From Candidatus Eiseniibacteriota bacterium (lineage in GTDB: Bacteria > Eisenbacteria > RBG-16-71-46 > CAIMUX01), in NCBI GenBank assembly GCA_903844735.1, contig CAIMUX010000033.1, positions 1 through 64,000 on the forward strand: a stretch of 64,000 nt of DNA, written 5' to 3'. The notes beneath the pieces are model-generated. The model ran no database searches. It saw only the letters and a program-made list of their open reading frames with translations, and was not told the DNA's origin. The position numbers were made by a program, and so were the translations under genes. Shown piece by piece: positions 17,774 through 28,411 of this stretch. Every line of letters begins with the position of its first letter. The stretch's first letter is position 1.

Positions 17774-19468
17774 TCACGGCATTCTAGCACCGGGGGAGCG
17801 GGCGGGATCCAGCCTTTCCATTGCGGCCGACCGGGCCGGGAGACGGAACTCCAGATCCGAAACGACCTGCGCCCCACGAATCGAGATCGCCGCGGCGGAG
17901 TCCCACGATGGCGTGCCCGGGTACCAGATCAGGCTGTCGGATGGGGATCCGGAACATGAGCCGTCCGCGGAAAGGAAGCGGTTTGTGACTCCGACTTTGT
18001 AGTCTCCATCCGAAAGCCCGATGAATCGGAATTGCCCATCGGGGTCGCTGACGTAGTCGCGCCGGAGGCAAGTGTCTTGATCCGCAGGAGTCAGAATCGA
18101 GCCGAAGAACGTAACCGGGTTGTCCTGGTAGTCGAGGACCAGGCCTTCGATCGTGCCTCCGGTGAGAAGGCGCACGGTCATCGGAACAACCTCTCCACCC
18201 GCTGGGACGACGATCGGCGTGGCCGCTTCCGGCGTGGGCGCGCGGTCGTACCACTGGGGGAGCCACTCCGTGTCCGCCTGATGGGACGGCTCGATGCGAA
18301 GGCGATAGGTGCCGCCCAGGAGTCCCGGGATCGCCAGGAGATCCGGGGGCTGAATCCGGGGCGTGCAGACAATCTCGACACGCCCGGTGGCATCGAACAC
18401 GCGGACCACGGCATAGGACGGGCTCTCGATCCCCTGATCGGCGACGACTGTTAGGAGAATCGCGCTTTCCATTCGCCCTGCGACCTCGACCTCCTCGCCG
18501 GGAGCAAGAACGAACTCGGTCGCCTCGCGGAATGAGGTTCCCCCGATCCAAAACGAGGCCTCTCCGAGCCCGACTCGGACACGGACCCGCTCGATCAAAT
18601 AGAGATCGAACTGAAACACTCCGAAGACGTCCGCGGCGCCCGACGCGACTTTGAGCGAATCGGCGTCGTACAACGACACTTGGGGGACGCCGATGCCCAG
18701 CCGCTGCCAGCTTCCCTGGATCTGCCCTCGGATCCGCGCGGCTGGGGACGCTAGCGTGGCGCGGTAGATGACCCTTTCTCCCGGTTCGATCGAAACCGTA
18801 TCCGCTGCCTGCGGGTCGCGCGTGAAAGGCATCCAGAACGGCTGCTGGAGTCCTCCGAAGCTCAGATTCGCGCGAATGAAATACGCTCCGGGCGGAACCG
18901 AGCCGAACGATCCCCGGCGATGCCCATCCTGCGCCCGGGCTGACACCGAGGCGTACTCAGCCCGGGAACGGGGATCTGGCGCGGTATCGCGCAGGGAGAC
19001 GTTCAGCATCGTGCCGTCGAGCCCAGCCGGCAGCGTGAGGTCGAACATGCCCGCACCGAAGACGAGATTGACCTGGTCGAGAATCTCGCCTCCCCGCACG
19101 GTCAGTGTGTCGGCATCGCGCGACAGGCGAACGGGCCCGTTCGCCTTGTAGTAATAGTGATTTCCGAAATCGGTTCGCAAAAGGTAGCGCCCCTCCGGCA
19201 CGTCGAGGACGTAGCCACCCTGTTCGCCGCAGGGTGCGCGGAAGGAGGCTCGGCGATTGTGATCGGCGAAGACACCCTCGGCGACGACGGCCAAGTGCAC
19301 CGAGTCGCCCGGTGCGTGGACAGTGCCCCGGATCGTGCCCGAAGCGGGAGGCGGACAGCACGCCGGCGTGTTCGACGATGTTTCGCAGCAAGGCAAGAGA
19401 GCTAATAAAATCGGAAGAATGAGGAGCGCCCTACGTGAAGAAGGGGCGTGAAGATGACTCATCTTCAT
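17774..19468 (-). CDS. Lipoprotein with repeated beta domains, paralog B
   Basis: A 564-aa exported lipoprotein with signal peptide and lipobox (LLALLPCC). The mature region resembles repeated carboxypeptidase-regulatory-like or CnaB-type beta domains: GTIRGTVHAPGD near the N-terminus, PEGRYLLRTDFGNHYYY, later GGTIEGLVLDYQDNPVTFFG, and GQFRFIGLSDGDYKVGV. It is a clear paralog of the gene upstream, sharing LPQWY and FRFVGLSDGDY-type phrases and the final beta unit with WYPG. The ATG at 19468 overlaps the upstream stop in an ATGA, so translation is coupled. Its role is unknown; the domains suggest binding of a carbohydrate or envelope component. hutH lies 91 bp downstream on the same strand. 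Confidence 0.7.
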   Translation of the reverse strand: MKMSHLHAPSSRRALLILPILLALLPCCETSSNTPACCPPPASGTIRGTVHAPGDSVHLAVVAEGVFADHNRRASFRAPCGEQGGYVLDVPEGRYLLRTDFGNHYYYKANGPVRLSRDADTLTVRGGEILDQVNLVFGAGMFDLTLPAGLDGTMLNVSLRDTAPDPRSRAEYASVSARAQDGHRRGSFGSVPPGAYFIRANLSFGGLQQPFWMPFTRDPQAADTVSIEPGERVIYRATLASPAARIRGQIQGSWQRLGIGVPQVSLYDADSLKVASGAADVFGVFQFDLYLIERVRVRVGLGEASFWIGGTSFREATEFVLAPGEEVEVAGRMESAILLTVVADQGIESPSYAVVRVFDATGRVEIVCTPRIQPPDLLAIPGLLGGTYRLRIEPSHQADTEWLPQWYDRAPTPEAATPIVVPAGGEVVPMTVRLLTGGTIEGLVLDYQDNPVTFFGSILTPADQDTCLRRDYVSDPDGQFRFIGLSDGDYKVGVTNRFLSADGSCSGSPSDSLIWYPGTPSWDSAAAISIRGAQVVSDLEFRLPARSAAMERLDPARSPGARMP

Positions 19469-21108
19469 TGCGGAATCCTCCAGTCCACGCCCGCAACCTC
19501 GCCGGAATCGCGAATCGACAGCACTCCCGCTGCCCGCCAGTCTGCCACGCCCGGATACCAGCGCACGGGAACGCGATACCATGCGACACCCAGCCGGTAG
19601 TCGCCGTCGGACAGACCGACGAAGCGAAAGGCTCCCGTGGCCACGTGAGCGGAAGCCCGGCGCAGAACCACCGTGGAGTCCGCAAGCGAGGACAGAAAGA
19701 GTTCAATCTGGCCGACCACGGACGCATCCTCACGGGTCACGCTACCGGCCAGGCTCCCGCCGGCGCGCAGGTGGAACGTCGCGTTCACCAGGCCGCCTTC
19801 CGTGGGAATGACCAGTGGTGTGGCGTACTGTATCGAGTCAGCCAACTCGTACCATTGTGGCAGCCAGATCTGGTCGTCCTCGGGAATGACCTGGAGATAG
19901 TAGGATCCGGGTCCGAGGTTCGGAACGGTGACGTCCGCCCGCTCATCCAGATGCAACGGGGATCTCGTCAATGTCCTGCCGAACCCGTCGATCACCTGGA
20001 TCAAGGCGTTATGGTAGCTCCAGGCTCCGGGTCCTTCCAACGTGATGTGAAAGCCACCGTCCGTGATCTCGATACCGTCGATCAACTGCCCCGGTTTGAG
20101 GTCGATCCGCGTGGCATGGGAGAAGGAGTCGCCTCCGAACCATCGCTGGATGCCTCGCGTCGTCAGGCAGACGCGGACAGGCTCGGGATGGTAGAGCCCG
20201 ATCCGAAAGTCCCGGCCTTCTCTCAGGTAGCAGGTAGCCAGTCGTACGGAGTCGGCGCTGAACAAGGTGATGTCGACCGATTCGTAAGGCTGGGGCCGAT
20301 CGCCCTCAATCCTGCCCTGTAGGTGTCCAGGAGCCTCGATATCCTCGCTACAGACGGTTACCTGGCCGTCCGAAACCGTAATCCGACCCGCGTTCTCCGG
20401 CTCACTTCCGCCACCCAGCCGAACATCTTCGTTGTAGGAGGATCGGAAGCTAAGGGAGTAGTCCAAGGCCGGCAAGAACGGAATGTCAACCTTGGCGATC
20501 CCGTCGACCAAGTTTGCATTCCGGGCAACGCGGACGGCAGCCCAGGCATAGGGTGGGTCGAGGCTCTCGAGCTGCAGCGCCACGCTCTCTCGCTGCCGGT
20601 CGTCCGACCCGGACGGAAACCGAATCTGAATCCGCAGGCTTCCGCCGAGCAGGTCGGCCTCCACGATCTGGCCGGCCTGAACCAGATTGAGAGTCTTGGC
20701 CCGAGCCGGGATGGTTGTGAGCCCGGCGTCCGAGTAGTAGAGATACGTGCTGACGCCATCCAGGACCGGTCGGAGCAGGTACGCTCCCAAGGGAAGCATC
20801 AACTCGAAGCGGCCGAGGGAGTCTACGGGCACCGTGGCGCGGGCGAAGTTCGGAGCCGCACCGTTAATCGGCTCGGCGGCCACCCTGATCGAGGCGAGTT
20901 CTCCCCCTCCGGTGATAATCCGCCCCCGAATCGTGCCCTGGCTGCCCTGGAGGCACACCGGATTCGTCGACTCCTTTTCACTGCACGAGGCAAGCAACCA
21001 GACCAGCAGAACGATCGCGCACAAGGGACCAAGTGCATATCGAATCACCCGTCTGTTCGAGCCGTAGCTGGAACCGATTCGCATTCGTCGGACGATGCGC
21101 ACAGGCAT
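19465..21108 (-). CDS. Lipoprotein with repeated beta domains, paralog A
   Basis: A 547-aa lipoprotein. A basic N-terminus, a hydrophobic run (GPLCAIVLLVWLLASC) and a canonical lipobox cysteine point to lipid anchoring. The mature protein has several transthyretin- or carboxypeptidase-regulatory-like beta repeats, for example QGTIRGRIITGGGELASIRV followed by GRFELMLPLGAYLLRPVL, and the C-terminal FRFVGLSDGDYRLGVAW with WYPGVADW. The same plan is seen in the downstream paralog, implying local duplication. The ATG at 21108 has AAGGAGA 6 nt upstream. It is divergent from the TldD-like gene across 482 bp. No enzyme motif was seen. Confidence 0.7.
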   Translation of the reverse strand: MPVRIVRRMRIGSSYGSNRRVIRYALGPLCAIVLLVWLLASCSEKESTNPVCLQGSQGTIRGRIITGGGELASIRVAAEPINGAAPNFARATVPVDSLGRFELMLPLGAYLLRPVLDGVSTYLYYSDAGLTTIPARAKTLNLVQAGQIVEADLLGGSLRIQIRFPSGSDDRQRESVALQLESLDPPYAWAAVRVARNANLVDGIAKVDIPFLPALDYSLSFRSSYNEDVRLGGGSEPENAGRITVSDGQVTVCSEDIEAPGHLQGRIEGDRPQPYESVDITLFSADSVRLATCYLREGRDFRIGLYHPEPVRVCLTTRGIQRWFGGDSFSHATRIDLKPGQLIDGIEITDGGFHITLEGPGAWSYHNALIQVIDGFGRTLTRSPLHLDERADVTVPNLGPGSYYLQVIPEDDQIWLPQWYELADSIQYATPLVIPTEGGLVNATFHLRAGGSLAGSVTREDASVVGQIELFLSSLADSTVVLRRASAHVATGAFRFVGLSDGDYRLGVAWYRVPVRWYPGVADWRAAGVLSIRDSGEVAGVDWRIPQ

Positions 21109-21590
21109 CACGTCTCCTTCCGAGGCCGTTCGGGCCCGGCCGTTGATCACTCCCGTTTGTGGATCCGGCCGGCGAGCTCTCGACGGCGGCGAGGATCGAG
21201 TTACGCAAGAACCCAGGAAAGCAACGGTCACGAAACATCATTTCTGATCGGGCGGTGCTTCGCAACCGCAAAGGTCGTTTATTCGCGACCCTGATCCGCT
21301 GCGCCAGGCCGAACCGGGCCTCCATCGTGCGAGGGGGGCGCCCGGCACTCGCCGGCAATCGGCGCTTCGGGCGAGATACGATGGCGGGTGTCATGGCCGC
21401 GGCCGAAGAGAAGCCGGCAGGAGCCGCGAAGGGCGCCGACGCCGGCCTGGGGGCCGTGCCCGGAAAACGCTTTCCCGCCGCCCGGATTTCCTGCCACACT
21501 CTCTGTCGCCATCGCGGAAGAGGATGGAAACCCCGGTGCGCGGCCCGTGCGCGGCTCCCGGGGCTCACGGGCGAAACACATGGAGGTCGT
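21109..21590. promoter_or_regulatory. Divergent intergenic region between lipoprotein A and the TldD-like gene
   Basis: 482 bp without a convincing gene. Frames run through it from both sides only as extensions of the flanking genes. It must carry promoters for both directions, but no clear -35/-10 pair or operator could be picked out by eye. Confidence 0.3.
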
Positions 21591-23339
21591 ATGTATCAGC
21601 GAGTCGGTCGTTGGTTCGCCTTGGTCCTGGCGCTCACGTTTCTCCTCCCGGGCTCAATCCGGGCGGCGTCGTCTCCGCTGCTGGATATCATGCAGCAGGA
21701 GCTGATCCGCTCCATGACGCATCTCTCCTCCATCCAGCCTGACTCGGTCTACTTCCTCCAGTACGAGGTGATTGAGGAAAGGGGGTGGGGACTCGATGCC
21801 CGCGATGGAGGACTCCTGGCACCCAGCTCCAGCTTCTCCCGTTCTCTCGATCTGGACCTGCGCTTGGGTAGTACCGAGCTGGACAATACCCATGAGATCC
21901 GTGGAGGGAACTGGAGGAACAATTTCCGGCCACGTCGAATCATTGCGTTTCCCATCGAGGCCGACACGGGGGCGATTCGGGCCGCGCTCTGGTCGGAGAC
22001 AGAGTACCAGCTTCAGAGGGCACGGGAGCGATACACCAAGGTCCTGAGCAACCGCCAGGTCAAGGTGGCGGAGGAGGACCTCTCGCCCGACTTCTCGACC
22101 GCGGCGCCGCAGACGTTCGAGGAGAGTTCGACCTATACACAGCTTGACACCCTGGCCTGGCGCGACATCATCCGGCAGACAGCCAGCTACTTCAGCCAGT
22201 TTGACTTCATCTACGAATCCAGGGTCGGCCTGCGTGCCGCGGATCGCACCGCCTACCTGGTCAACAGCGACGGGAGTCGCCAGGCACACGAGAATCACTA
22301 TCTGCGCTTCTCTTTGAGCGTTTCCGGGATGGCGCAGGACGGCATGGAACTGTATCGACCCGAGACCTTCTCCGCCGCCACGCCGGCACACCTTCCCGAC
22401 GAGGCGACGGTTCAGGCCGCGGCGGAAAGGCTGGTGGGAGAACTGAAGGCGCTGATCAACGCTCCAATAGTGGAGCCCTACATCGGACCCGCCATCCTCC
22501 GCAATCGAGCCAGCGGGGTGTTTTTCCACGAGATTTTCGGGCACCGAATCGAGGCCCACCGGCAGAAGAGCGTCTCCGAGGGGCAAACATTCACCAAAAA
22601 GGTCGGCGAAGAGATTCTGCCCACGTTCATCAGCGTCTATGATGATCCGACTCTGTCGACGTTCAAGGGCACGGACCTGCGCGGGTACTACCGGTTTGAC
22701 GACCAGGGGATGCCGGGGGAGCGGGTCACCGTGGTGGACAAAGGCATCCTGCGCAACTTCCTCTGTTCCCGTTCGCCCATCGCCAATTTTCCCGTCAGCA
22801 ACGGACACGGGCGGCGAGAGAGCGGCTTCCAGGTCGTCTCGCGCATGGGCAATCTGCTCGTGGAGTCAGCCAAGACCGTACCCTACCCCCGACTCCGGGA
22901 AATGCTGGTGGAGGAGTGCCGCACGCAGAAGAAGCCCTACGGGCTGATCTTCGATGACATCTCGGGAGGGTTCACCCAGACCGGTCGGGAGGGACCGCAG
23001 GCGTTCAAGGTTCTTCCTCTTCTGGTCACACGGGTCTATGCCGATGGGCGGCCGGACGAGGTGGTGCGGGGGGTCGACATCGTCGGCACGCCGCTGACCT
23101 CGTTCAGCAAGATCCTGGTCACGGGTGACGATGGCGGCGTTTTCAACGGCACGTGTGGCGCCGAGTCTGGATGGGTCCCGGTTTCCGCCGTCTCTCCGAG
23201 CATCTTAGTCTCGGAGATCGAAGTGGAAAAACGAGAGAAAGAGCAGGAAAAACCTCCGATTCTTTCCCCGCCCGCCCGGAAGTCACTGCATGCGCCGGGA
23301 GACCTCGATGACCTGGAACCGCGCAGAGCGCAGAACTGA
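21591..23339 (+). CDS. Secreted TldD-like metallopeptidase (HExxxH present)
   Basis: A 582-aa TldD/PmbA-family protein with an N-terminal signal peptide (FALVLALTFLLPGSIRA), whereas classic TldD is cytoplasmic and about 480 aa. The family zinc motif is intact: HEIFGH at residues 313-318 in GVFFHEIFGHRIEAH, and Cys522 in FNGTCGAESGW. The closing block PVSAVSPSILVSEIEVEK is family-typical. Known TldD works with TldE to degrade unfolded peptides, including microcin precursors. The ATG at 21591 follows TGGAGG; a longer frame to 21159 lacks a signal peptide. The next gene, 10 bp on, is a related protein without the zinc motif, so the two probably form a secreted heteromeric peptidase. Confidence 0.85.
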   Translation: MYQRVGRWFALVLALTFLLPGSIRAASSPLLDIMQQELIRSMTHLSSIQPDSVYFLQYEVIEERGWGLDARDGGLLAPSSSFSRSLDLDLRLGSTELDNTHEIRGGNWRNNFRPRRIIAFPIEADTGAIRAALWSETEYQLQRARERYTKVLSNRQVKVAEEDLSPDFSTAAPQTFEESSTYTQLDTLAWRDIIRQTASYFSQFDFIYESRVGLRAADRTAYLVNSDGSRQAHENHYLRFSLSVSGMAQDGMELYRPETFSAATPAHLPDEATVQAAAERLVGELKALINAPIVEPYIGPAILRNRASGVFFHEIFGHRIEAHRQKSVSEGQTFTKKVGEEILPTFISVYDDPTLSTFKGTDLRGYYRFDDQGMPGERVTVVDKGILRNFLCSRSPIANFPVSNGHGRRESGFQVVSRMGNLLVESAKTVPYPRLREMLVEECRTQKKPYGLIFDDISGGFTQTGREGPQAFKVLPLLVTRVYADGRPDEVVRGVDIVGTPLTSFSKILVTGDDGGVFNGTCGAESGWVPVSAVSPSILVSEIEVEKREKEQEKPPILSPPARKSLHAPGDLDDLEPRRAQN

Positions 23340-23349
23340 GGGGTGCAAC

Positions 23350-25095
23350 GTGAAAGCAACTGCCGCTGTCTGTTTGTCTCTCTTGATCCTCATGCTCGTC
23401 GTGCTCATGCCGGTCTCCACTGTGAGGGCGGCAGACACCCTCCAGGACGACGCTGTATTTCGAGCCATGCAGGACGAGCTGGACCGGTCCGGCAAGGGGC
23501 TTGCCATTCCCGGTATGAACCCTCCGTACTTCCTGAGTTATCGCGTTCGGGAGCACCGGGACGCGACCTTGGAATCGCGTTATACGGCGCTTACTGACAG
23601 CTCGACATCCAGGAGTCGCGGCTTGATGATCGGCCTGCGGGTAGGGGATCCGGGCCTGGACAACACCAACTTCTACCAGGACTGGCGCAACATCTGGGTC
23701 AGCCCCGGTGGGTTGGTCGATGAGAACAACTACGACGCCCTACGACACGAGATCTGGTACCAGACCGACGCCATGTACAAGAGTGCGCTCGAAAGCCTGG
23801 CCGGCAAGAAGGCCTATCTCCAGGCGAATCCGCCCAAGAAAGTCCTCGCCGACTTCACCCCGGCCGAACCGTTCGTTTCCCTCGGCCCGACGGTGCCGCT
23901 GACGGCCGACCGTCAGGAGGCGAGCCGTTGCGTCCGTCTGGCTGCAAGCGCGTTTCGGAAGAGTTCGGACCTGCAGGACTGGCGTGTGACCTGGTCCGGG
24001 CATTCGACCAATCAGTGGTACGTGAACTCAGAAGGAAGCAGACACCGCAAGGGAATGGCCGGTCAGGCTCTCGATATGAGCGCCACGCTCCAGGCCGGGG
24101 ATGGTCAACGCCTGACCGGGTTCGTCTCCTACCTGCTCCACCAGGACGACGGTCTTCCCGCCGCGGCGACTCTGACGGAAGATGCTCGCCGTCTGGCCGC
24201 GGATTTGCGGGAAATGGCTTTCGGGTCGCTTCTGGATGAGTACATAGGGCCGGTCCTCTTCACCGAGGTAGCCTCGGCCCAGTTCATCGCTCAGCTTTTC
24301 GCCGCACAGCTCACGTTGGTCCGCAAGCCCCTTACCACGGAAGAATGGATGAACCAGCGCATGCCCGTGGGCAAGCTCGCGGGCAAGTTGAAGCGGCGAG
24401 TCCTTCCCTCCTTCGTGAGCATCCAGGACCAACCGAAACTGGAGACATGGGGCGGTAGGAGATTGGTCGGCACCGCGGTGGTGGATGATGAGGGGGTGGA
24501 GAGCCGGGACATCACGCTGGTCGAGAACGGTCGGCTGATCAATCTTCCCATGGGCCGGCAACCGGTGGAAGGATTGGAGCGCTCCAATGGGCACGCTCGA
24601 TCCACGGCGCAGCAGATGACGGTTCCCGGCATTACGAACCTTCTGGTGACATCGTCCGATCCCAGACCGTGGGAGAAAATGCTCCGAGGCTTGCGCGATC
24701 TCTGCCGGGAGCAGGGGATCGAATACGGCCTCCTGGTGCGGAAGCTCGAAGATCCGCGCTTCTCGGATCTCTACCGGACCACAGAGCGCGCAGAAGAAAG
24801 CCAGCCGGAACTGCTCGCCCCCCCGCTTCTCGTGTACCGAGTCTACGCGGAAGATGGGCGGGTCGAGCCTGTCCGCGGTCTCGGCTTCGACGCGGTGTCG
24901 GTGCGCTCCCTGCGGGACATCACAGCGCTGGGGGCGGATGCGCAGGTGTACAACCTGCTGCAACCCGTGCCTGGATTCGGTGGCTACCAGCAGGTCTCGA
25001 TCATCACGCCGTCGATCCTTGTCGAGGAGATGGAGTTGAAGTCAGCGGGAGTTCACGAGCCACTCACCGTGGAGAAGAACCCGATCTTCGACTGA
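23350..25095 (+). CDS. Secreted TldE/PmbA-like partner lacking the zinc motif
   Basis: A 581-aa homolog of the preceding gene. It keeps the same architecture, including the closing block QVSIITPSILVEEMELK, but at the HExxxH position reads TEVASA (residues 305-310), so the zinc ligands are lost. This parallels the TldD/TldE relation, in which TldE has no metal. The start is GTG at 23350 with GAGGGG upstream, directly before a good signal peptide (CLSLLILMLVVLMPVSTVRA); ATG at 23290 would bury the signal peptide and overlap the upstream gene. Only 10 bp separate it from the catalytic partner, and a strong terminator follows, so this is a two-gene operon. Confidence 0.82.
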   Translation: MKATAAVCLSLLILMLVVLMPVSTVRAADTLQDDAVFRAMQDELDRSGKGLAIPGMNPPYFLSYRVREHRDATLESRYTALTDSSTSRSRGLMIGLRVGDPGLDNTNFYQDWRNIWVSPGGLVDENNYDALRHEIWYQTDAMYKSALESLAGKKAYLQANPPKKVLADFTPAEPFVSLGPTVPLTADRQEASRCVRLAASAFRKSSDLQDWRVTWSGHSTNQWYVNSEGSRHRKGMAGQALDMSATLQAGDGQRLTGFVSYLLHQDDGLPAAATLTEDARRLAADLREMAFGSLLDEYIGPVLFTEVASAQFIAQLFAAQLTLVRKPLTTEEWMNQRMPVGKLAGKLKRRVLPSFVSIQDQPKLETWGGRRLVGTAVVDDEGVESRDITLVENGRLINLPMGRQPVEGLERSNGHARSTAQQMTVPGITNLLVTSSDPRPWEKMLRGLRDLCREQGIEYGLLVRKLEDPRFSDLYRTTERAEESQPELLAPPLLVYRVYAEDGRVEPVRGLGFDAVSVRSLRDITALGADAQVYNLLQPVPGFGGYQQVSIITPSILVEEMELKSAGVHEPLTVEKNPIFD

Positions 25096-25102
25096 CGCGG
25101 GT

Positions 25103-25139
25103 GCGGCGGATCTCCGGTTGAACGCCGGGGATCCGCCGC
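25103..25139 (+). terminator. Strong hairpin ending the TldD/TldE-like operon
   Basis: A 15-bp stem with one G-T wobble (GCGGCGGATCTCCGG with CCGGGGATCCGCCGC) and a 7-nt loop begins 7 bp after the stop. No T-run follows. It sits between convergent genes and could serve both. Confidence 0.65.
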
Positions 25140-25187
25140 CTCACATCGATCAGGCCGGCTGATCAGCCGTCCTTCTCTACTTCCCCT

Positions 25188-26720
25188 CTACTCCCCGAAC
25201 TTCACAGGCGCGAGCTCGTGCAGCGGCCCGAGCCCGAGGCTTTCCAGCGAGCCGCCGAATTGGTCGGGGTTGCCGAGTACCAGAATGACCCAATCGTTGC
25301 CGGTGAGATACTGCTTCGTGAGTCGGGCCAGATCACCCGAGGAGGCCGCCTGCACGCGTTCGACGTAACGTGGACGGAAATCCGCCGGCCTCCCCTGTAG
25401 AATGTCCCCTACCGTGCGCTGGACGAGCGCTGCCGGAGTTTCCCCGGTCTGGATCTCGGAGCCGATCACGGAGACCTTGGCTGACTGCAGCTCCGTCGCC
25501 GTTGCCGGATCCTTCTCCATCCGCTTCGTTTCCTCGAGAATGGCGCGCAACAGCGGGAGGGTGGCATCGCCGCGCCCGGAGCCGGCGCCACGGATCAGGG
25601 TTCTCTCCGGGCCGACGTTGAGGGACATGAATGTGCCGTACGACAGTCCTTCTTCGCGCGTGCGGTAGAAGACACGCTGGTACCCGAGCACCGAACTCAG
25701 CAAATTCGCGGGTGCCAAATCGGGCGACTCATCCGTCAGGTCGACGATGCGCGCTGCCCGGATCTGGCTTTGCTCGTAGTCGCCCCGGAGGAGATAGACC
25801 CCGGGCTCGGGACGCGCGATCCACGGCTCCATCACCGGCGGTTCGTACGGTCCCGGAACCTTCCAATCGCGGAACAGCTTGTCCAGAAGCGCAAGCATCT
25901 GCTCGCGGTCGAAATCGCCGCTCACGCCGATCAACGCGTTCTCCGGACGGACGAAGCGCCGGTGCAGGATCAACAAGTCTTCTACCGTCACGCCTTCGAT
26001 GTCGGGCCGTGTTTCCAGGCGGGAGGTCGGGAACCCCTCTCCGTACACCAGCCAGCCCAGCCGCTTCTCGGCAATCGTCCTGGGTTCGTTGTTGATAGCC
26101 TGGAGCTCCTGCAGACGGGTGGCCTTGGCCCGCGCCAGGCGACCGGCGTCGAACCCGGGATGGATCACCACGTCGCGCCAGAGGGGAAGCGCCTTCTCCA
26201 TGTCCTCGCGGCTCAGGCTGACCGAAACTCCGCCGGTGCGTGCCCAGATGTTTGCCTTCACGGATGCGTCCAGTGCGGTCAGCACCGCATCCAGAGAGTC
26301 CGGCGGGATCGTCGTGGTCCCGCCATCCCGCCAAAGGCTGCCAAGCAGGCCGCAGGCCGTGTGCTTCTCGGCCGGCAGATAGCGCGTTCCCATCTTGAAC
26401 TGGATCGTGAGGTCGAGGATCGGCAAGTCACGGCTCGGGTAGAGAACCACCGGAATGCCACAAGGCAGCGTGGCTTGTTCGGCGCCAAGTGGCTTGGGCG
26501 TGAGCGGTTTCAGGGTCAGATCGTCCGGGTGTCTTGGCGTTTGCGCCAACGCGCCGGGAGCGAAGATCGAGACGGCCAGGATGAAGAGGAACACAGTTAA
26601 GGCGGCCGACCGGGTCGAGGCGCGGTGGCGAAAGGTGACAGGCCGGGCCGAGGCGCGGCGGCAGAAGGTGACCGACCCCGCCGTGGCATGCCCGTGGGTG
26701 GTTCGTGGCGTTGTAGGCAT
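25188..26720 (-). CDS. M16-family peptidase homolog without zinc motif (partner subunit)
   Basis: A 510-aa exported protein with a signal peptide ending near APGALAQT. The fold phrases are those of M16 (QATLPCGIPVVLYPSRDLPI, RPENALIGVSGDFD, FYRTREEGLSYG), but the HxxEH motif is absent: the matching region reads TACGLLGSLW. The substrate-binding Arg/Tyr pair in FYRTREEGLSYG is kept, as expected for the non-catalytic subunit of a heterodimeric M16 protease. The ATG at 26720 shares one base with the upstream stop (TGATG). The N-terminal leader contains a short direct repeat (VTFCRRAS, VTFRHRAS), so the true signal start could be the later hydrophobic run. Confidence 0.82.
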   Translation of the reverse strand: MPTTPRTTHGHATAGSVTFCRRASARPVTFRHRASTRSAALTVFLFILAVSIFAPGALAQTPRHPDDLTLKPLTPKPLGAEQATLPCGIPVVLYPSRDLPILDLTIQFKMGTRYLPAEKHTACGLLGSLWRDGGTTTIPPDSLDAVLTALDASVKANIWARTGGVSVSLSREDMEKALPLWRDVVIHPGFDAGRLARAKATRLQELQAINNEPRTIAEKRLGWLVYGEGFPTSRLETRPDIEGVTVEDLLILHRRFVRPENALIGVSGDFDREQMLALLDKLFRDWKVPGPYEPPVMEPWIARPEPGVYLLRGDYEQSQIRAARIVDLTDESPDLAPANLLSSVLGYQRVFYRTREEGLSYGTFMSLNVGPERTLIRGAGSGRGDATLPLLRAILEETKRMEKDPATATELQSAKVSVIGSEIQTGETPAALVQRTVGDILQGRPADFRPRYVERVQAASSGDLARLTKQYLTGNDWVILVLGNPDQFGGSLESLGLGPLHELAPVKFGE

Positions 26721-28318
26721 CACCGCTGCCCTCCCTGCTCCGAGGCTGCCTGGGCTTCCGGCTCGACCAGGATCACAGTCGCGCGATCCGTGGTGAACAT
26801 CTGCTTCGCGAGCGCCGTGACATCGTCGGCCGTAGCTTCGTCGGTCCTTCGCACCACGTCGATCGCCCGGCGCCAGTCGCCGTAGACCATCTGCCCATCG
26901 ACCAGGAAGTCCGCCAAGGCAGGGCCGGTGACGAGTTGGCGATAGAACCGCTTACGCCGCGAGGTCTGGATCTCCTTCAGCTTCTCGGGGGTGACGGGGT
27001 TCGAGACAACCCCCGCCAGTTCCTCCCAGGCCATCGTCTCGACCTGCTCGTTCGTGAACCCTTCGAGCGGCTTGGCGTGGACGAGGAGCAGTCCGGGATA
27101 GCGGTCTCCCGAAGCCGAGGCCCAGACGCCGGTCGCGGCCTTCTCCTTGATGTCCAGCCGTCGATCGAGGCGGCTCGTGATGTCGCGACTGAGGACGTCG
27201 GCCAGAAGAGTCTCCGTGACGTAGCGGGGGTCTGTCGGCACGAAGCCGTGGAAGGCGAGGAAGAGCTCGCGCTCGGTGCCCTGCCGAAGCACGGTTCTCC
27301 GCATGCCCTGCTGGGGAGGCTCGACCGTGTTGACCGGAGGCGGCGAGGGTCCCGCGGGGATGTCGCCGAAGTAGGCGGCAATCAAGCGTCTTGCCTCTGC
27401 CGGATCGAAGTCCCCGACCAGGGAACAGACTGCGTTGCCGGGGGCGTAGTACGTACGGTAGAACTCCTCCATCGCCTCCTGCGGGAGGGTCCGCAAGTCA
27501 CTCATGAAGCCCAGAACCGGCAGCCGGTAGGGATGCGCCGCAAAAACCGTCGCGCCGAGAGCCTCCCAGGCCTGATCGGTCGGATCGTCCTCGCTTTGGC
27601 GGCGCTCCTCGATCACGACGTCACGCTCGCGGTAGAAACCACGGAATGAGGGGTTCTGGATCCGCTCGCTCTCCATCAGCATCCAGACTTCGAGGGCATT
27701 GGCGGGCACGTCGGTCTCGTAGCTGGTGAAGTCCGGGCTGGTCCAGGCGTTGAAGTAGTAGGAGTAGCGGTCGTAAAGGCGGTTGAACTCATTCAGGTTG
27801 GTGAGATCGTACTGACGCTGCCCGAGCCGGTCTAACTCATTCTTGAGGCCGCGCACCCTGGCGGTGTCGCCCTCTTCGTGTAGAGCCACCTCGGCGCAGA
27901 GCGCTCGTCCGACCGACTTCAGGCTGTCCTCCACCGCGATTTCGGCCGGGCGATCCTTCGCGCCGATCCGATCGGTGCCCATGAATGCCATATGCTCGAA
28001 CATGTGCGCCACACCCGAGCGTCCGGCTGGGCAATCGACGTTGCCGGCGCGAAAGCGAATGCGACCGCTTACGATCGGCACTTCGTGACGCGGGAGCAGC
28101 AGGAAGAGCATGCCGTTCTCCAGCCGGACCTCTTCCACGCGATCGAAGATGGCGGGAGGCGTGAAAGCAGGCCGGGCCGGGTTCTTCGGCCCCGGCTTGG
28201 TGGCCGCCGACACTTCGCCGGTAACGAGCATGAGGAGCCCGAGAGACCCAAGCAGCAACAGCAGAGTCGCCCCTGGCGACCGCAGCCGAGCGAACCGGGG
28301 ATCGAGAAGATGCGTCAC
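26720..28318 (-). CDS. M16-family zinc peptidase (catalytic subunit)
   Basis: A 532-aa exported M16 peptidase. The inverted zinc motif is intact (GVAHMFEHMAFMGT, with HMFEH) and the downstream glutamate lies in YRERDVVIEERRQ. Between them is an insertion of roughly 50 residues, longer than usual. A signal peptide (LLLLLGSLGLLMLVTGEVSA) places it outside the inner membrane, so it should degrade peptides in the periplasm or outside. The GTG at 28318 follows AAGGAGG 5 nt upstream; an in-frame extension to 28384 has no such site. It is coupled to the inactive partner by a one-base overlap. Confidence 0.88.
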   Translation of the reverse strand: MTHLLDPRFARLRSPGATLLLLLGSLGLLMLVTGEVSAATKPGPKNPARPAFTPPAIFDRVEEVRLENGMLFLLLPRHEVPIVSGRIRFRAGNVDCPAGRSGVAHMFEHMAFMGTDRIGAKDRPAEIAVEDSLKSVGRALCAEVALHEEGDTARVRGLKNELDRLGQRQYDLTNLNEFNRLYDRYSYYFNAWTSPDFTSYETDVPANALEVWMLMESERIQNPSFRGFYRERDVVIEERRQSEDDPTDQAWEALGATVFAAHPYRLPVLGFMSDLRTLPQEAMEEFYRTYYAPGNAVCSLVGDFDPAEARRLIAAYFGDIPAGPSPPPVNTVEPPQQGMRRTVLRQGTERELFLAFHGFVPTDPRYVTETLLADVLSRDITSRLDRRLDIKEKAATGVWASASGDRYPGLLLVHAKPLEGFTNEQVETMAWEELAGVVSNPVTPEKLKEIQTSRRKRFYRQLVTGPALADFLVDGQMVYGDWRRAIDVVRRTDEATADDVTALAKQMFTTDRATVILVEPEAQAASEQGGQR

Positions 28319-28411
28319 CGTAACCTCCTTGGCAAATGGACCCCGCACCGGTCCAGACACCGACGCGGGGTCTCTTGTCATCACGAGTCCGTCAGAAGGT
28401 GGCCACGAGGT

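Follow-up and report, generated by a model that had tools for sequence, protein, structure and literature searches.

Two adjacent genes at positions 21,591–25,095 of the 64,000-nucleotide stretch of Candidatus Eiseniibacteriota DNA analyzed here (hereafter, the window) were originally predicted to encode a secreted TldD/TldE-like pair, one with and one without the zinc motif. This raises the question of whether they are an exported version of the known TldD/TldE peptidase or something else, and what such a pair would do outside the cytoplasm. Both genes are on the forward (+) strand, as are their associated features described below, and they are separated by 10 bp. Gene A (21591..23339) starts with ATG and encodes a 582-aa predicted exported TldD-like zinc peptidase, while gene B (23350..25095) starts with GTG and encodes a 581-aa predicted exported TldD-like pseudoenzyme, so the positions, spacing, and lengths of about 580 aa given in the original prediction all stand. 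Both have good ribosome-binding sites: GGAGG for A (21582..21586) and GAGGGG for B (23338..23343), the latter overlapping the stop codon of A. Coding is supported by GC contents that are far higher at third codon positions (0.76–0.77) than at second positions (0.45–0.49). The two genes had also been proposed to share a terminator. There is indeed a very strong GC hairpin directly after B (25097..25144; –38.6 kcal/mol, z –7.2), which sits between convergent genes, but it has no T run and is therefore terminator-like at most. Scans of the sequence for sigma-70 promoters and T-run terminators found nothing useful.

Both proteins belong to the TldD/E family based on domain searches, and structure predictions agree. 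The C-terminal PmbA/TldD domain (PF19289; cut-off 22 bits) was matched by A at 101 bits (E 5e-29) and by B at 68 bits (E 1e-18). The HMM of the N-terminal PmbA/TldD domain (PF01523) did not match either protein; it does match classic TldD/TldE proteins encoded elsewhere in this genome, on three further contigs. In sequence searches against the PDB, A matched E. coli TldD structures (E 2e-13), while B had zero matches. A structure prediction of the heterodimer had been proposed as a check, and we modeled a natural A-B fusion (L019) with AlphaFold2 (pLDDT 87.8, pTM 0.84), as well as B (pLDDT 90.7). Foldseek comparisons of these two models with the PDB gave 16 matches at E ≤ 0.001, all of them TldD, TldE, or PmbA (best E 3e-28; target TM up to 0.78), and the predicted fold aligns along whole TldD subunits (~530–560 columns) despite the missing PF01523 match. 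Thus, A and B are predicted to share the TldD/E fold. Assembly of the two into a heterodimer is predicted as well, on indirect grounds: the co-occurrence and natural fusions described below point to it, and the pTM of the modeled fusion counts for it, since two equal halves of unsure relative placement should fall short of such a value, with the qualification that some rows of the underlying alignment joined A to B by translating through the in-frame stops that separate them, which builds in the fused arrangement.

The two proteins differ at the zinc site. Protein A carries the full TldD site, H313, E314, H318, and C522. Its HEIFGH motif (residues 313–318; 22527..22544) aligns with H262–H267 of E. 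coli TldD and its Cys522 (23154..23156), the predicted third zinc ligand, with TldD C454, which confirms both elements named in the original prediction. All 32 aligned A proteins, which come from across phyla, have the same zinc ligands and general base, and the most conserved A columns include VFFHEIFGHR and CGAESG, i.e., the ligand and catalytic residues with their surroundings. In B, a column alignment shows that all zinc ligands are absent and that there is no HExxxH. The loss of the motif from the second gene was therefore called correctly, while the residues assigned to it were not: TEVASA (B residues 305–310) aligns with RNRASG of A, and the true counterpart of HEIFGH is the degenerate AQLFAA (residues 314–319; 24289..24306). 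B retains the conserved motifs SNGHGR and RVG..LDN without catalytic residues, as might be expected if the pair were an exported chaperone-like shell in which A binds metal and the two subunits hold unfolded peptides without cutting them. We regard this as very improbable, since the ligand and catalytic columns of A are among its most conserved, which fits selection for catalysis.

Are both proteins exported? Each N-terminus is positively charged, then hydrophobic, and then has a plausible signal-peptidase site, and sequence, hydropathy, and homologues together predict Sec signal peptides at residues 1–25 of A (21591..21665; cleavage between IRA and A) and residues 1–27 of B (23350..23430; cleavage between VRA and A). 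Neither a lipobox nor an additional strongly hydrophobic segment was found in the A or B of the window. Our export calls come from a simple heuristic (a charged hydrophobic N-terminus plus a cleavage-like site) rather than SignalP; the full signal is present in 68 of the 77 A proteins and 64 of the 71 B proteins, and 71 and 69 of these, respectively, have at least the hydrophobic N-terminal stretch. The same heuristic flagged two of 34 classic TldE proteins, which served as a control. This supports the signal peptides that had been noted on both genes, and both A and B are predicted from their sequences to be Sec-exported. The obvious objection, raised with the original prediction, is that these are ordinary cytoplasmic TldD and TldE with mis-called starts, and Pfam and NCBIfam do place A and B only in the TldD family. 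We rejected mis-called starts because both subunits carry predicted signal peptides in many phyla and the control proteins rarely do. The genome also has separate classic pairs on other contigs, and our phylogenetic tree (below) separates A and B from them. Altogether, we give a cytoplasmic pair next to no chance, less than any other reading considered here.

The pairing of A and B extends well beyond this genome. A scan of public genomes yielded at least 493 relatives of A, and we analyzed the best 80, from records that name Calditrichaeota, Eisenbacteria, WOR-3, Zixibacteria, Planctomycetota, Acidobacteria, Verrucomicrobia, Elusimicrobia, Cyanobacteria, and others; three of the 80 are on contigs that end too early to test. 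Among the 77 testable loci, B is directly downstream of A in 74 (two of these are fusions, and in one the contig ends within B). In the remaining three (L032, L083, and L086), a B-type gene without HExxxH is encoded elsewhere in the genome; in two of these genomes (G048 and G049), that second copy is distant (~350 bits). All 18 whole genomes examined have equal numbers of A and B, though in two of these the B counted is a distant copy encoded on a different contig. In the phylum of the window, six of 47 genomes encode a full-length A and the same six encode a full-length B. Co-occurrence across genomes, which had been suggested as a check on the pair, is therefore borne out, and the recurrence of the arrangement across phyla indicates that it is more than chance. 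Three genomes (G051, G055, and G058) have the exported pair and no PF01523 proteins, indicating that the pair is independent of classic TldD/TldE.

There are also three independent natural fusions of A and B in a single frame (L019, on the same contig as L125; L126; and L078), none with an internal signal segment. The distance matrices of A and B correlate (r = 0.92 over 65 pairs, to which shared species history contributes), and mean identity is 50% among A and 35% among B proteins, which suggests that the dead subunit changes faster. A tblastn search of plasmids gave distant matches, none reaching 80% coverage of A. Separately, one genome of the same family as that of the window encodes a lone A/B-type protein of ~549 aa (L129; G001:C59, 3531–5178) that contains HEVLGH and the Cys motif; it has no partner and shows no evident signal peptide. 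Its scores against A (418 bits) and against B (364 bits) are similar, and it may be a single-gene (homodimer) form.

If A resembles TldD, is B then an exported TldE? A tree of 50 sequences resolves A, B, TldD, and TldE as separate groups and divides A+B from TldD+TldE with 100/100 support. A is not inside TldD but is sister to B. The AU test rejects a grouping of B with TldE, both on all columns (p = 2e-75) and on the C-terminal domain alone (p = 1e-15), and a grouping of A with TldE is rejected too; the branch between A+B and TldD+TldE is long, which calls for caution about model error. Direct comparisons follow the same pattern: A and B share 29% identity over nearly their full length (181 bits), while A matches TldD at 77 bits, B matches TldD at 29 bits, and B does not match TldE. 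By these sequence comparisons, A and B are each other's closest relatives, and we reject B as TldE. Since A and TldD share the zinc site, their common ancestor had it, and, given the tree, B and TldE lost it separately, so that a catalytically dead partner arose twice. Thus, of the label "exported TldD/TldE," the predicted export, the pairing, the combination of an active and a dead subunit, and the TldD/E fold all hold, while the identification of B with TldE does not. The better label is an exported TldD-like enzyme whose partner is a duplicate that was inactivated separately.

What would such a pair do? In E. coli, TldD/E is a hollow heterodimer in which TldD alone holds the metal (H262, H267, and C454); neither subunit suffices by itself, and trimming of unfolded peptides starts at the N-terminus, in a "pencil sharpener" mode [Ghilarov et al. 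2017; PMC5810440]. Carrying this mechanism over by analogy, we consider it probable that A-B degrades unfolded peptides as an M103-like, heterodimeric zinc peptidase that is either periplasmic or secreted. After export by Sec, each as its own preprotein, A and B would fold in the periplasm (or beyond it) and come together as a hollow TldD/E-type heterodimer. The metal would be held in A by H313, H318, and C522, E314 would act as the general base, and B, duplicated from the same ancestor as A and deprived of its zinc site independently of TldE, would be a catalytically dead shell subunit. Unfolded peptides would enter the chamber and be trimmed to short peptides in the same pencil-sharpener fashion. 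The likely role would be the non-specific breakdown of unfolded or partly digested envelope peptides, for nutrition and/or clean-up.

The genomic neighborhood in the window is in keeping with digestion. Other genes there specify an OPT peptide transporter, a MutL-family protein, M28 and C25 peptidases, the members of an M16 pair, two S41 proteins of the tricorn type, a glutamate-type dehydrogenase, and an aromatic amino acid lyase. Genes for protein digestion and amino acid catabolism are unusually dense over positions 1–48000. Just upstream of A-B, two tandem, similar-looking genes on the minus strand (17774–19582 and 19465–21231) contain carboxypeptidase-regulatory-like stretches. This context is local: the families that neighbor A-B in the window are nearly absent at homologue loci, where neighbor families are mixed between loci, and we found no conserved third gene or biosynthetic cluster near them. 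The surroundings of A-B thus suggest peptide digestion, as a feature of this genome rather than of the pair at large. The commonest neighbor family elsewhere was LptF/LptG, an LPS export permease (8 of 91 neighbors scanned with Pfam), which could hint at another role in the envelope and which we count against degradation. At eight loci, mostly Acidobacteria, a ~770-aa gene lies within a few bases 3′ of B (L062, L068, L074, L079, L081, L082, L085, and L087); we take these genes to be the eight LptF/LptG matches.

The LptF/LptG neighbors would also be compatible with an exported maturation protease, one that removes leader or pro-peptides from particular exported substrates, such as a RiPP-like peptide or an envelope protein, and TldD/E is known to remove the leaders of microcin B17 and other RiPPs [PMC5810440, PMC10885120]. 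However, no conserved precursor or modification gene lies beside the pair, as neighbors vary by locus; those in the window are mostly digestive, catabolic, or transport genes, and a general function better fits so wide a spread of the pair among phyla. Maturation is therefore unlikely, and we favor degradation over it on the strength of the pair's own neighborhood and the lack of a conserved maturation gene. Less likely still is that A-B is an exported amidohydrolase or N-deacetylase whose substrate is a small amide or a compound of the envelope. The TldD/E family is said to include N-deacetylases, going by the title of a review from 2022 that PMC10885120 cites, and low identity to E. coli TldD leaves scope for changed chemistry. 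However, the predicted fold keeps the whole TldD-type subunit, the set of catalytic motifs is unchanged, and there is no biosynthetic cluster context.

Returning to degradation by an exported peptidase, we found no description of an exported TldD/E pair in the literature searched, which omits most subscription papers. Two leads come nearest. One is a "Peptidase U62" (MXAN_2519), at most a candidate for the A/B branch, in outer membrane vesicles of Myxococcus xanthus [PMC4158809]; the other is a TldD in a Leptospira exoproteome, which at 49.9 kDa is of classic size [PMC5881292]. The fold and chemistry are thus known, while the literature that we searched, in which characterized family members act inside the cell, does not describe the exported branch, the separate dead partner that goes with it, or its wide spread across phyla. 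On balance, we lean toward the view that A-B represents an exported, ATP-independent, self-compartmentalizing zinc protease that clears unfolded envelope peptides in many poorly studied phyla, and whose pseudoenzyme evolved independently of TldE, so that the active-plus-dead heterodimer arose twice. As such, it is a candidate for ATP-free envelope peptide clearance in many uncultured phyla, and its separately evolved dead subunit is a natural repeat experiment on why TldD needs an inactive partner. The natural A-B fusions may be convenient to express and crystallize.

Compared with known systems, A-B is closest to E. coli TldD/TldE (MEROPS M103; 5NJ5, 5NJ9, 5NJC, and 5NJF): one subunit has HExxxH and a distant Cys, the second is dead, and the fold is the same by prediction. 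However, E. coli TldD and TldE are shorter (481 and 450 aa), signal-free, and encoded apart, while A and B bear predicted signals and are adjacent. A is 24% identical to E. coli TldD over 402 columns, and B has no match to TldE, to which it is not sister; B also keeps clamp-region residues around the lost Cys that are absent in TldE. Another comparison comes from the same genome, in which the classic TldD proteins on two contigs (G000:C131, L001; G000:C80, L002) have Tat-like N-terminal signals and the adjacent TldE have none. The same combination occurs at L100, L102, L117, and L124, and examples of the Tat-like signals are DRRAFLSRLG, HRREFLGVLGG, and SRRTFLK. This suggests that TldD and TldE may be exported there as a folded pair, with TldE as a passenger. 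Like A, these are TldD-type zinc proteases that are apparently exported, but the signal is on TldD only, whereas A and B each have a predicted Sec signal. Finally, two overlapping M16 genes on the minus strand (25188–26723 and 26720–28384) adjoin the A-B pair; the latter has HMFEH and the former lacks HxxEH, making them a second active-plus-dead metalloprotease pair next door. Such M16 pairs follow the same logic of an exported active subunit with an inactive partner, but with an unrelated fold and an HxxEH motif.
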